A stretch of 64,000 nucleotides of DNA, taken from assembly GCF_000685355.1 (NCBI RefSeq), contig NZ_JHET01000008.1:124001-188000 (forward strand). Reading direction: 5' to 3'. Under the pieces are notes generated by a model. The model was given only the letters and a program-made list of their open reading frames with translations. It was not told the DNA's origin and ran no database searches. The DNA comes from Microbacterium sp. CH12i (lineage in GTDB: Bacteria; Actinomycetota; Actinomycetes; Actinomycetales; Microbacteriaceae). The position numbers were made by a program, and so were the translations under genes. Shown in pieces: positions 46,972 to 51,530 of this stretch; within the stretch, counting starts at the first letter, position 1, and every line of letters begins with the position of its first letter.

Positions 46972-47044
46972 GGCCCCATCGTTTAGCGGCCTAGGACACC
47001 GCCCTTTCACGGCGGCAGCACGGGTTCGAATCCCGTTGGGGTCA
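46972..47044 (+). tRNA. tRNA-Glu(UUC)
   Basis: 73 bases: acceptor GGCCCCA with TGGGGTC, anticodon stem CCGCC/GGCGG around CTTTCAC (anticodon TTC), T loop GGTTCGAATCC. CCA not encoded. Confidence 0.96.
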
Positions 47045-47072
47045 CTCCAAATCCGATACAATTTAATAGCAT

Positions 47073-47146
47073 GGCCCTGTAGCGCAGTTGGTTAGCGTGC
47101 CGCCCTGTCACGGCGGAGGTCGCGGGTTCAAGTCCCGTCAGGGTCG
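47073..47146 (+). tRNA. tRNA-Asp(GUC)
   Basis: 74 bases: acceptor GGCCCTG with CAGGGTC, anticodon loop CTGTCAC (anticodon GTC), T arm GGGTTCAAGTCCC. It lies 28 bases after tRNA-Glu and is probably co-transcribed. Confidence 0.96.
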
Positions 47147-47158
47147 CTCTAAGCGACG

Positions 47159-47180
47159 GGCCCTTTTTTCGAAAAGGGCC
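47159..47180 (+). terminator. Hairpin after tRNA-Asp
   Basis: GGCCCTTTT-TTCG-AAAAGGGCC is a perfect 9-bp stem closed by a UUCG tetraloop and followed by TTTCGTC. It ends the Glu-Asp tRNA transcript before tRNA-Phe. Confidence 0.8.
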
Positions 47181-47218
47181 TTTCGTCTAAGATGCGGCAG
47201 ATTTATGATGTGTCGCAC

Positions 47219-47291
47219 GGCTCTGTAGCTCAGTTGGTAGAGCGCACGACTGAAAATCGTGAGGTCACGGGATCGACGCCCGTCGGAGCCA
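47219..47291 (+). tRNA. tRNA-Phe(GAA)
   Basis: 73 bases: acceptor GGCTCTG with CGGAGCC (one G-U pair), D arm AGCTCAGTTGGTAGAGC, anticodon loop CTGAAAA (anticodon GAA). The T loop reads GGGATCGACGCCC, where TTCGA is expected as the core; the deviation (ATCGACG) is noted. Confidence 0.93.
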
Positions 47292-47318
47292 CACGGGTCA
47301 TCATTACAGTGATCCTAG

Positions 47319-47354: not shown

Positions 47355-47400
47355 GCTTTGCCCTGATGAGGGGTCGTTTGGTCAAGTCTGGGGCCGGTCG

Positions 47401-48684
47401 TCACGCGTTCCAGCCACGCGACGACGCATACTCATGGATGCTGTCGACCATCCGCCCGACGAACGGGTCGTCGCCGAGCTGCGCTCGCGCAGCATCCGCC
47501 GCCGCAGCGTAGGCGATCACGATGCCGTCCGTGATCTCATGGGCGCGCGCCTCAGCCCAATCGCGGTCGAGGCCGACCCGCGCCGCCACCCTGACCAGGG
47601 AATCGAGGCTGATCTGTCCGACGCTGTCCTCGCCCTCGATCGACATGGCGAGCTTCGGGTTACCGCCGTCGGCGGCGAGGTACGGAGCGTAGCTGCCGAG
47701 GTCGTTGAGCGGGGCGAGTGTGGCACGATCACGCCGCAGCAGAAGCGAGTAGTTCTTCGCGTGCGCGTCGGTGCCGAGGGACGCCACCGAGAACACAAGA
47801 GCCTCGTAGAACTGCCTTGCGTTGCCTCGCCGGTCCTCGGCGTCAGGCAGGGAGTTGATGAGGCGGGCAATCGCGGCGATACCTGGCCCGCCCTCGGACT
47901 GATACTTCATGTCCGGCGGCACGCTCAGCGCCTGACAGAGGTCTTCCTGATGGAGCCGATGCCAACGCCCTTCTTCGAGCCGGCGGTCGTAACGCGTGGA
48001 CACGAACACCGCGTCACCACGTTCGGTGGTTACCAAGAAGTCGTCAGCGACGCGAAGATCCAGCGCACGCGCCGCGGCCATCGTCATGAACTCATTGATG
48101 TGATGGTCCGGATAGGGCGCGACTGCTGGCTTCAGTATGTGCGTGGTCGGTGTCGAATCCTGCGGCACCGCCCATCGTTCCTGCTCGGTGCGGAACAGCG
48201 CGACTTTGGGCTGCGCACCGGGAAGACTCCAGCGCGCGTCATCCGTACGCCTCCCCCAGGTATCACCGTTGCGAACAAGATCCGCCACGAGCTCCGCGAA
48301 GTCGGTGTCGGAGAGTTCTCTCACATCGCCGTGACGTTCGGCTGCGTCAGCGCTCGCCTCACCAGCCGGAAGCAACTGCACCGCACCGGCCGCATCACGA
48401 CCAATGTGCGAAAGCAACGCGAAAGGATTACTGGCGCTGACACGATACTCGCGTCCGAGCTCCGCGAGCCGGCCCGGACTGTCGGGAAGCAATCCCTGCA
48501 GAAAAGCGCGCACCGGCTTGTTCTTGTGCCCGGCGCGCACAAGCGGCATGGAGAGTGAGAGCGGGGTCGCATCGCGCCGGGACCGGTAGTCAGCGTCGTA
48601 GGTGAATGACAAGGCGCCGCCAGCCGACTGCTCGACGACGCCGATCGCTTCGCCATCGAGATACGCGAACAGTTCACTCGACAT
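47401..48684 (-). CDS. hipA: HipA-family toxin (serine/threonine kinase fold)
   Basis: This 427-residue protein has the HipA N-terminal domain (FLQGLLPDSPGRLAELGREY, VSASNPFALLSHIGRDAAGA), the phosphate-binding SLPGAQPKVAL, THILKP with the nucleotide-binding lysine, and the catalytic loop GTDAHAKNYSLLL with Asp and Asn, then LNDLGSYAPY. HipA kinases stop growth by phosphorylating targets such as glutamyl-tRNA synthetase. The gene overlaps hipB by 11 bases, typical of a co-translated toxin. All key residues appear intact. Confidence 0.9.
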   Translation of the reverse strand: MSSELFAYLDGEAIGVVEQSAGGALSFTYDADYRSRRDATPLSLSMPLVRAGHKNKPVRAFLQGLLPDSPGRLAELGREYRVSASNPFALLSHIGRDAAGAVQLLPAGEASADAAERHGDVRELSDTDFAELVADLVRNGDTWGRRTDDARWSLPGAQPKVALFRTEQERWAVPQDSTPTTHILKPAVAPYPDHHINEFMTMAAARALDLRVADDFLVTTERGDAVFVSTRYDRRLEEGRWHRLHQEDLCQALSVPPDMKYQSEGGPGIAAIARLINSLPDAEDRRGNARQFYEALVFSVASLGTDAHAKNYSLLLRRDRATLAPLNDLGSYAPYLAADGGNPKLAMSIEGEDSVGQISLDSLVRVAARVGLDRDWAEARAHEITDGIVIAYAAAADAARAQLGDDPFVGRMVDSIHEYASSRGWNA

Positions 48685-48901
48685 CGTCGACCTCGCTGAC
48701 GTCGACGACGAGGCCGAGCTCTCGGAGAACGCGCATGAGCCGGAAGAGCGTGACGGTTGTGGACCCGTTCTCCAGCCGCACGACCCACTCGCGAGTGACG
48801 CCGGCGCGGCGCGCGAGCTCAGCTTGAGACAGACTCAGACCTTCGCGGCGCTCAGCAACGAGTGCCCCGAAGTCGGATGCAGCGCGTACTTCCATCTCCA
48901 C
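48674..48901 (-). CDS. hipB: HipB-family antitoxin (XRE HTH)
   Basis: This 75-residue DNA-binding protein has a classic XRE helix-turn-helix, LSLSQAELARRAGVTREWVV, then RLENGSTTVTLFRLMRVLREL. It is the size and position expected for the antitoxin of the HipA that overlaps it. Three repeated dyads directly upstream are its probable operators, so the operon should be self-repressed. The C-terminal LVVDVSEVDDVE may contact HipA. Confidence 0.9.
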   Translation of the reverse strand: MEMEVRAASDFGALVAERREGLSLSQAELARRAGVTREWVVRLENGSTTVTLFRLMRVLRELGLVVDVSEVDDVE

Positions 48902-48908
48902 CTCACAA

Positions 48909-48977
48909 GTGACTTGTAACGCACAATTCTACATGTGACTTATAACGCACACAAGGCGAAGTGACTCATAACGCACA
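48909..48977. promoter_or_regulatory. Three-copy operator array between hipB and the divergent HTH gene
   Basis: GTGACTTGTAACGCACA (48909), GTGACTTATAACGCACA (48935) and GTGACTCATAACGCACA (48961) start exactly 26 bases apart. Each is also an imperfect dyad of form GTG-N2-TTATAA-N2-CAC. The array begins 8 bases before the hipB ATG and ends 66 bases before the divergent gene. Confidence 0.8.
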
Positions 48978-49042
48978 ATCTTGCGTGGCGCTCAGGGACA
49001 ACGCTCGAAGTTCTTCACACAGAAGGTTTAAGCCTGAACTTT

Positions 49043-49705
49043 TTGACAACGAATGAGGCAGCACAGCTACTCGGTGTTACGCCGCGTCGCGTGGTGCAGT
49101 TGCTGAACCAACGCCTCCTCGATGGGCGCCAAGTCCAGCGCGATTGGCTGGTCTCAGCCGCCTCCGTTCGACAGCGCGAAGCTCTGACTACCGCACGCGG
49201 TCGGCCGATGACGCCACAAACGTCACGCGCACTGATCGAAGCACTCGACAACGGAACCAGCCTCCCCGCACGTCGAGGCAATCTCTTGCACAGCCGCAAC
49301 GCCGAGCTACTTTCCAGCGCTATCGCTCACGCCGTCTGCGTGGAGACATTCATGACGCGCGATCCTCAACTCGCACTCGAGCGCCTGCATCTCACCGCGG
49401 AGTCCGCGCTTCAGCGCCTCACCACCGAGACTGGCGAGAGCCTTGCAGGGCAGTCGCCGGAGATTCACGGCTATCCGCGAGATACGTCCATGGAGGATCT
49501 CATTGATGACGCGATGCTGGTCCGCAGCGATGAAGGTACGGTGCACGTTTATCAGTTCCGCGATGGCCTGTTCCCTTGGGAGGAGACCCCGGCGGCATTG
49601 ATCGCCGCTGATGCAGCACGCAGTGACAGTTCGCGCGTGCACGCTGCAGGCATCGATGCGCTCGAAAAGAAGAGGACCAAATGGCTGGCCAGTCACACAC
49701 AATAG
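49043..49705 (+). CDS. HTH protein, possible antitoxin partner of a nucleotidyltransferase
   Basis: This 220-residue protein opens with an excisionase/MerR-like HTH, TTNEAAQLLGVTPRRVVQLL followed by NQRLLDGRQVQRDWLVS. A helical middle contains RPMTPQTSRALIEALDNGTS and LERLHLTAESALQRL, and the C-terminal part ends EKKRTKWLASHTQ. The start is a TTG at 49043 with an AGAAGG rather far upstream, so it is uncertain. It is divergent from hipBA and overlaps the next gene by 25 bases, the layout of toxin-antitoxin pairs. I recognise only the HTH. Confidence 0.65.
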   Translation: MTTNEAAQLLGVTPRRVVQLLNQRLLDGRQVQRDWLVSAASVRQREALTTARGRPMTPQTSRALIEALDNGTSLPARRGNLLHSRNAELLSSAIAHAVCVETFMTRDPQLALERLHLTAESALQRLTTETGESLAGQSPEIHGYPRDTSMEDLIDDAMLVRSDEGTVHVYQFRDGLFPWEETPAALIAADAARSDSSRVHAAGIDALEKKRTKWLASHTQ

Positions 49706-49965
49706 AGCTGGCTGCGGATGAACCGCCATGGCCGCTTGCATTCGAGCTCGCCTCCGGCCTGCCGAAGGGCAGTTGGGTTCTCGTTGGCGGCCTCATGGTT
49801 CATGTCCACGCGCTGCGTGCCGGAGTGAAAGCTTCACGTCCGACAACTGATGTCGACCTGCTGCTGAACATCGAGACGGCGTCGGCCGCCGAGATCGGTG
49901 ACGTCCCCGGGAGTGGTGTGGTTTCCCGGGTTCCTGGCGTCGCGTCGTTGAGCCACCCCCTTTGA
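49681..49965 (+). pseudogene. Truncated nucleotidyltransferase-fold protein (AbiEii-like)
   Basis: The first 65 residues carry a nucleotidyltransferase pattern: SWVLVGGLMVHVHALRAGV (VGG motif) and RPTTDVDLLLNIET with the DxD-like metal-binding aspartates. Relatives have about 200-280 residues. After ASAAEI (about 49895) the reading turns into unrelated sequence and stops at 49965, so at least two thirds of the gene are missing. The 25-base overlap with the HTH gene suggests a former toxin-antitoxin operon of AbiE-like type. Confidence 0.55.
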
Positions 49966-50212: not shown

Positions 50213-51530
50213 ATGAAGCGAACGTCACGATGGCGTCTGGCGCGCGTCGCGATGCTGGCCGCGGTGGCAGTGCTCGTCGGGACGATCGCGACCTCGTTCG
50301 CACCTCCGCCCCCCGCATCGGCAGCTACTGACGGTCAGATGATCTACCCGGCATCGGGCACGATCCAGTCCAAGGTGGGCGACGGGTGCCGCTCCGACTA
50401 CCGCAATCACGACGGCATCGACATCTCCGGCCAAGGGGGCACGCCGATCCTTGCTGCGTACGACGGGGTCGTCACGACGCGCACCTGGAGCAACGGTTAC
50501 GGCAACTACGTCGACATCGAGCACGCGGCCGGATATGCCACCCGGTACGCCCACATGGTCGCGCCGGGAACCGTCGCCCCTGGCACGCGAGTGGTGCGCG
50601 GCCAACAGATCGGCGTCGTCGGGAGCACCGGCAACTCGACGGGCGCGCATCTGCACTTCGAGGTGTGGCGGAACGGATCCATCTACACCGCGATCAACCA
50701 GGGCTTCGTCTGCCTATCCACCATCGCGCGGGGCGCGACGATCCCGCTGGGCTTCCCCGGGCTCAGCACCGCTACGCCCGCACCCGTGCTTTCGGGCGAC
50801 TACAACGGCGATGGAAAGGCCGATCTCCTCGGGGTCGCCGCAGACAGCGACCTTCATTTCCTCGCGGGCAACGGCAGCGGCGGGTTCCTCAAGGGATCGA
50901 TCGTCACGAGTGCGTGGGGAATCCACCGGCACCTGACCCACGCGGATCTCAACGGCGACGGCCGCTCCGACATGCTCGTCGCCCGCAGCGACGGAGTGCT
51001 CGAGTACTACGCGGGGAACACCAGCGGCGGGTTCGGTGGCTACAGCACGCCCGGATCCGGGTGGTACGGGATGCTGCATGTGACGTCGGGCGCTGACTAC
51101 ACGGGCGACGGCAACCAGGATGTGCTCGGCGCCTCAGCGGCGGCGTGCTCACGCTCTATGCCGGCAACGGCACCGGAGCGCTCCCCGGACCGTACACGGT
51201 GGTCGGGAACGGGTGGAACAGCATCCGGTTCATGACCGGGGGCGACTTCAACGGCGATCGCTCGGTGACATCATGGCCGTGGGGTACGACGGCACCCTCT
51301 ACTTCTATCCCGGACTCGGCAGCCGCTTCGGCGCCGGAGTCGCAGTCAGCAGTGGCTGGGGTGTGATCACTGCGTTCACCGGGGGCGTCGACTACAACGG
51401 CGACAAGAATCCGGACCTGATCGCGCGCATCTCGGACGAGCTCTACCTATATCCGGGGGACGGGACGGGCCAGTTCAAGAGCCGTGTCCTCATCGGCTCC
51501 GGGTGGGCCGGGTATCTCCAGATCGAGTGA
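50213..51530 (+). CDS. Secreted M23 peptidase with five FG-GAP/VCBS repeats, two frameshifts
   Basis: A signal peptide (LARVAMLAAVAVLVGTIATS, cleavage near ASAA) is followed by a LytM domain: NHDGIDISGQGGTPILAAYD, YATRYAHM and HLHFEVW hold the zinc ligands. Then come five repeats with calcium-binding DxNxDG-like loops: GDYNGDGKADLL, ADLNGDGRSDML, ADYTGDGNQDVL, GDFNGDRS-GDIM and VDYNGDKNPDLI. Breaks near 51135 and 51264 each need one base. The corrected length is 439 residues. It probably cuts peptidoglycan outside the cell, with the repeats forming a partial propeller that binds wall or polysaccharide. Confidence 0.85.

Follow-up and report, generated by a model that had tools for sequence, protein, structure and literature searches.

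The window, by which is meant the whole 64,000-nucleotide stretch of Microbacterium DNA analysed here, carries on its minus strand a hipBA locus whose promoter contains three direct repeats, starting at 48909, 48935 and 48961 and spaced by exactly 26 bp. The features of the locus, in window coordinates, are as follows.

47393..48989, no strand assigned: hipBA block common to the orthologues (blastn), with its outer edge at the operator array
47401..48684, minus strand: hipA toxin kinase homologue, 427 aa (PF07804, PF13657, TIGR03071)
48674..48895, minus strand: hipB-like antitoxin, 73 aa from ATG (HTH_3/HTH_31; Y4mF-like)
48898..48904, minus strand: putative Shine-Dalgarno GAGGTGG for hipB, read from the sequence and present in the orthologues too
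48909..48925, minus strand: candidate operator O1, promoter-proximal, 1 mismatch to the dyad pattern; would cover the predicted hipB transcription start
48926..48931, minus strand: putative -10 TAGAAT, in the O2-O1 gap and separated by 17 bp from the -35
48935..48951, minus strand: candidate operator O2, exact dyad match, inside the -35/-10 spacer of the putative hipB promoter
48949..48954, minus strand: putative -35 TTGTGT, read from the sequence and by the lattice/promoter script (row L091)
48961..48977, minus strand: candidate operator O3, 1 mismatch to the dyad pattern, upstream of the -35 element
49021..49899 (to 49965 on a wider delimitation), plus strand: remnant of an HTH and nucleotidyltransferase-like locus, by comparison with G117 (L121/L172) and G214 (L120/L171)

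The product of the larger gene is a HipA homologue in which both the C-terminal kinase and the N-terminal domains are recognised by Pfam (PF07804, 149.5 bits against a cut-off of 30.5; PF13657, 78.8 against 22.5), and the NCBIfam family TIGR03071 is matched with 99 bits (cut-off 27.8). It aligns over residues 5-406 with E. coli HipA chains (E about 1e-43) and keeps Ser, Asp, Asp and Gly at the positions of E. coli S150, D309, D332 and G22 (G23 in the window protein), the first three being active-site residues of E. coli HipA and G22 an interface residue (PMC7029023). Directly upstream of hipA and overlapping it (hipB stop at 48674, hipA start at 48684) lies a Cro-type HTH gene, whose product scores 38.4 bits with HTH_3 (cut-off 23) and 61.0 bits with the Y4mF-type family TIGR03070 (E 7.5e-17), below that family's cut-off of 71.65, and is a relative of it only. 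The most likely start of hipB is the ATG at 48895, which is backed by the G041 orthologue with its N-terminus MEIRAASDF, while the alternative GTG at 48901 would give 75 aa. Judged by domains, conserved residues and gene order, the locus can be placed in the HipBA type II toxin-antitoxin family. Ahead of hipB, TTGTGT-17-TAGAAT is a plausible promoter by its resemblance to the consensus, of which it matches 8/12 bases; a stricter sigma-70 consensus scan, with a threshold of 9 of 12, passes over it.

The position and spacing of the repeats, as given by the first-pass annotation, are borne out: GTGNNTTATAANNCAC with up to two mismatches matches just the three array copies in the window, and three such matches occur in 0/100 dinucleotide shuffles. 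The same annotation had described each copy as a GTG-N2-TTATAA-N2-CAC dyad, which is exact in the middle copy only, since each outer copy has one mismatch in the core (TTGTAA in the copy at 48909, TCATAA in that at 48961). Moreover, the dyad is imperfect because the N2 pairs (AC and CG) are asymmetric, and on the minus strand the copies read as an imperfect dyad of the form TGTGCGTTAT(G/A/C)AGTCAC. Copies elsewhere as trans targets of HipB were considered and rejected: in the genome, 96% complete by the tool's figure, no further place lies within two mismatches of GTGACTTATAACGCAC outside the three array copies, and the 7 further places listed all have 3 mismatches.

Orthologous loci and the neighbouring DNA

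The array was also sought, as had been suggested with the first reading, before homologous hipBA loci, and three copies at 26/26 are present in each of three other orthologues (G280, G252 and G041), with scores reached by 0/100 shuffles. By blastn, the shared block covers window 47393-48989 in L089 (G280), 47386-48989 in both L090 (G252) and L039 (Microbacterium sp. AK031, whose scanned upstream is identical to that of G252), and 47300-48977 in L095 and L170 (both G041); homology with the orthologues ends at window 48977-48989, at or just outside O3. Outside the array, blastn (E 0.01) on the next 600 bp gave no match between any two of the four loci, the window included. That the array belongs to hipBA, being kept with it next to unrelated upstream DNA, is supported by this comparison of sequences.

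In the window and its orthologues, the hipBA block lies downstream of the same tRNA-Phe flank. The tRNA-Glu, tRNA-Asp and tRNA-Phe genes of the window stand in a row at 46972-47292, and the stretch that follows tRNA-Phe varies among Microbacterium genomes, being occupied by either hipBA or an HTH and nucleotidyltransferase-like pair; the window has both. A relative of the window's hipBA has been called part of a virus or prophage, because a predicted viral contig from IMG/VR (L215, 1-1281) opens with a hipA 95% identical to the window's, the hipB side lying off the contig. Further along the window, an M23 peptidase with FG-GAP repeats is found at 50213-51530; its repeats seem to continue in other frames (ORFs 51120-51530 and 51145-51366), and this change of frame is possibly a frameshift or a sequencing error.

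The array lies, as first described, between hipB and a divergent HTH gene, and from this position it had been proposed that HipB could control two toxin-antitoxin-like loci at once. In G117 and G214, relatives of the divergent gene (69% identity) adjoin a tRNA flank of the same kind on its downstream side, with no hipBA intervening, and their ATG is immediately preceded by a separate dyad of the type CTTCC...GGAAGGTTTAA; behind the HTH gene of G117 stands a second gene, of about 250 aa. The window keeps only AAGGTTTAAGC, half of this 5' dyad, has CTG (49034-49036) at the position of the ATG, with the next in-frame start a TTG at 49043, and has a cut partner gene, in which homology is lost at about 49899 and the 3' part is missing. 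The fragment resembles AbiE-type HTH and nucleotidyltransferase loci by a weak PADLOC match to AbiEii (E 0.003), but differs from them in that the protein of the G117 relative has no Pfam match up to E 0.1 and the window copy is truncated. The divergent gene is best read as a remnant beside hipBA, outside its operator system. Although the array sits between both genes, control of both from it appears very unlikely, as the DNA next to the orthologous arrays differs, the divergent locus has decayed, and a strict sigma-70 scan of 48800-49100 on both strands, which also missed the promoter of hipB itself, gave no promoter-like site. The array may nevertheless exert a steric effect on some promoter.

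Operator spacing in hipBA promoters

Matches to TIGR03071 were found in 61/295 Microbacterium, 71/249 family, 46/246 class and 21/198 phylum genomes, in samples that overlap slightly and each count the window's own genome; weaker matches in the family and class samples were left out of the survey, as was L289, from the same genome as L255 and with an equal match score. Together with loci from plasmids, E. coli, viruses and other genomes, and with repeats between samples left out, this gave 239 hipA loci. The proteobacterial loci came from 18 plasmid records picked for diversity among 60 listed of 1722 (L208, actinobacterial, was unscanned), and of 14 viral loci, 5 without a hipB region were left out. 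A HipB search of genome contigs yielded 50 loci. Six of them had a HipA match (E 1e-5), and of these 5 were used, L062, whose match lies on the other strand, being excluded; 41 of the remaining 44 served as controls, L064, L073 and L077 being too near the contig start. HTH antitoxins were found by profile, a regular expression having missed 12/71 loci. After removal of 21 loci without an HTH antitoxin by profile, of L039 (identical upstream) and of L276 (too short), 216 hipB promoters were scanned: in the 220 bp ahead of each HTH antitoxin gene, the highest-scoring set of three 16-mers was sought, each of the two spacings being allowed to vary between 18 and 55 bp. A triplet was taken as significant when its score was reached by 0/100 dinucleotide shuffles.

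Significant triplets are present in 118/216 promoters: 44/69 in Microbacterium, 27/63 in the family, 16/33 in the class, 10/20 in the phylum, 11/17 on plasmids, 0/1 in E. coli, 9/9 in viruses and 1/4 in other genomes. Their 236 spacings concentrate at 26 (71), 27 (60) and 28 bp (36), and 24 more lie at 37 (6), 38 (8) and 39 bp (10); none falls at 25, 29, 32, 33, 36 or 40, and in shuffled promoters each value accounts for about 2-4% of the spacings. Counted as arrays, 77 are short/short (26-28), 12 long/long (37-39), 10 short plus double, 3 at 49-50 and 16 of other kinds, outside the bands; some spacings of 18-24 bp are doubtful scan results. In the 98 promoters without such a triplet, both best spacings are 26-28 in 21 and 37-39 in 2. 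HipB proteins form 113 clusters (60% single linkage), 69 of them with a significant triplet, and of 62 clusters with regular arrays, 46 are at 26-28, 12 at 37-39, 1 at 50 and 3 outside.

Under the same parameters, hipA coding sequence gives 1/218 significant triplets, with 0 in band, and the 220 bp further upstream gives 8/215, with 1 in band (27/39, upstream of L151). Two sets of HTH genes without hipA give 2/40 and 0/14, with 0 in band; before removal of L059 and L020 these were 3/41 and 1/15, and the two loci, both of them significant, were taken out because they proved to have a hipA match: L020 is the hipB of a G004 hipBA locus that the survey includes, and the match at L059 is weak (E up to 1e-3). 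The controls thus amount to 11/487 significant and 1 in band, and an earlier scan, run within tighter limits and against separate controls, agreed with this. With three orthologous arrays and analogous arrays at more than half of the surveyed hipB genes, it is very likely that the window repeats are a true hipBA operator array and operators of HipB, as was first proposed.

The spacing recurs with quite different operators, whose types include GTGCGTTATAAGTCAC, TGTGGGAT...ATCCCACA, TGTCGCCGTACGGCGACA, TATCCGGAAA and TGTGGACGATC. In E. coli, according to PMC3376134 and PMC3920265, there are four sites of the form TATCCN8GGATA, HipB binding is cooperative, and the HipB complex bends DNA by 70 degrees. 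Our own count on the O1O2 48-mer printed in PMC3376134 gives 28 bp between site starts, and in E. coli 300709 (L196) exact TATCCN8GGATA sites lie at -134, -106, -67 and -39 from hipB, 28, 39 and 28 bp apart, so that both bands, differing by about one helical turn, occur in one promoter; this promoter falls short of the 0/100 mark, as 1 shuffle reached its score in the long-window scan. The window resembles E. coli hipBA in its hipB-hipA operon, its several upstream dyad operators and its homologous HipA. Its interval is 26 bp and not 28; both values lie within the 26-28 band of the survey. The window differs in having three sites, all 26 bp apart, rather than four, a HipB of 73 aa rather than 88 aa and, as the earlier reading rightly held, another operator sequence, the window copies being GTGACTTRTAACGCAC-like, of the TGTG...CACA type, with no TATCCN8GGATA (the E. 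coli motif as given in PMC3376134). That reading also placed bound dimers on opposite faces of the helix. With 10.5 bp to the turn, 26 bp amounts to 2.48 turns, which fits for straight B-DNA, but the idea is too simple, because both 26-28 and 37-39 bp occur across the family and DNA is bent in the E. coli complex.

Similar arrangements have been described in other systems. In Caulobacter crescentus, a passage of PMC7029023 says that the inverted repeats of hipBA stand at intervals that fit the E. coli higher-order complex, and PMC8545095 gives three operator sites each for hipBA1 and hipBA2, as in the window, and reports hipBA3/HipA3 without sites; the remark on intervals, in that passage, covers one species, whereas the present survey is family-wide. 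Legionella HipBST (PMC10653801) likewise has three evenly spaced operators bound by HipB, but with 53-bp gaps, a different motif and a three-gene system with a split HipA. The array of the window adds a further hipBA operator set to those described, the presence of several operators at hipBA being well known for E. coli. No survey of spacing across hipBA was found among the titles and abstract starts of the matches listed, in which subscription papers were mostly missing, and this literature search is a weak indication that the family-wide rule is new.

What may set the interval

We consider it probable, with good confidence, that the window holds an autoregulated hipBA operon, with HipB, or HipB with HipA, on O1-O3 in register, and with the 26 bp set by protein assembly rather than by operator sequence. 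HipB dimers, probably with bound HipA, would occupy O1, O2 and O3, and full occupancy would keep RNA polymerase off the hipB promoter, because O2 lies between -35 and -10, the start site falls within O1, and O3 is farther upstream. Binding of HipB at the window array, with repression, cooperativity and a distance-setting contact, is what we infer; neighbouring HipB or HipBA complexes would touch, most likely via HipA as in E. coli, and thereby set the 26 bp. Contacts between HipA molecules across the E. coli operators are reportedly described in a 2015 structure paper. A sentence in PMC7029023 also points to such HipA-HipA contacts, and the same part of that article describes hipA7 as the E. 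coli high-persistence allele, whose G22S change is believed to disturb the dimerisation of HipA in complexes at the promoter. If protein assembly sets the interval, 26, 27 or 28 bp, or one turn more (37-39), would be kept while the operator sequence changes; since many relatives do keep even spacing and change the site sequence, the toxin-antitoxin proteins probably set the distance. Several findings weigh against this reading: the 98 promoters that lack a significant triplet, the 16 arrays outside the bands, the HipB score below the Y4mF cut-off, the reported lack of operator sites for Caulobacter HipA3, and the promoter matches, since a sigma-70-like sequence occurs in 41/70 equal arrays and, of these 41, begins 3, 5 or 6 bases ahead of the final operator in just 17.

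It could be argued that promoter geometry alone dictates the spacing whatever the proteins do, 26-28 bp being forced because the operators interdigitate with the -35 and -10 elements (29 bp end to end). Indeed, in the window, as in several relatives, the first bases of one operator are shared with the -35, and the -10 immediately precedes the following operator. However, such geometry would fix one interval only, yet the two intervals are equal in 82/118 significant triplets; a third or fourth site falls beyond the core promoter (14/70 equal arrays have four operators); and the 37-39 class exists, with E. coli combining both lengths. As the sole cause it is therefore unlikely, and it may add a constraint for O1-O2, leaving O3, four-site arrays and the 37-39 class unexplained.

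Alternatively, a 26-bp unit may have been duplicated in tandem, which would be expected to leave equal spacing behind, and gaps are more alike within an array (0.40 identity) than between arrays of different loci (0.265), so part of this likeness may come from duplication; it could reflect flank preferences or an old duplication. Yet in the 70 equal arrays the operator copies are 78% identical against 40% for the gaps, and one and the same interval is found with operators of many kinds. The copies may have arisen by duplication, but this alone would not hold 26-28 bp in 46/62 HipB clusters with regular arrays, and the fit of spacing to the HipA tree points to an interval that follows the proteins across arrays of independent origin; as a full account duplication is very unlikely.

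Protein assembly, the preferred reading, was followed along the HipA tree, which was built with FastTree only, has no bootstrap and has long branches flagged; of 107 regular arrays, 102 entered it (HipA reading of at least 250 aa) and 99 have a spacing class. Operator spacing follows this tree: the class changes 20 times over the 99 arrays, against a mean of 51.7 and a minimum of 43 in 200 shuffles, and within 26/27/28 alone (84 rows) there are 16 changes, against a shuffled mean of 38.1 and minimum of 32. In the clade of the window's own HipA, 26 bp is found in 25/27 rows. The 37-39 class comprises 12 clusters on few branches, with 3 short/long changes, so support for a one-turn step comes from a small number of independent events together with E. 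coli, and because HipA and HipB travel together, the tree is blind to which of the two sets the distance.

On a broader view, HipBA may be a lineage-specific ruler of DNA distance, with centre-to-centre distances quantised at 26-28, at 37-39 (one turn more) and perhaps at 49-50 bp (two turns more) and inherited with HipA/HipB while the operator sequence is free, a proposal for which we judge the chances to be even. Conservation of operator spacing in hipBA goes far beyond that of sequence, and the spacing apparently changes in steps of roughly one helical turn. If the ruler is real, the promoter would be a scaffold that stores inactive toxin in a defined oligomer, and if HipA-HipA contacts on DNA set the spacing, an interval read from a genome would report the geometry of toxin storage, to which the high-persistence allele hipA7 is linked in E. 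coli. In addition, even spacing offers a way to seek hipB operators without knowledge of the motif. Three divergent hipA loci (L207, L225 and L226) have a spacing of 49-50 bp and are perhaps a third step of the same ladder. At three other hipA loci (L174, L173 and L212), the top-scoring spacings, 30-31 and 41-42 bp, also differ by roughly a helical turn, in a phase unlike that of 26-28/37-39.
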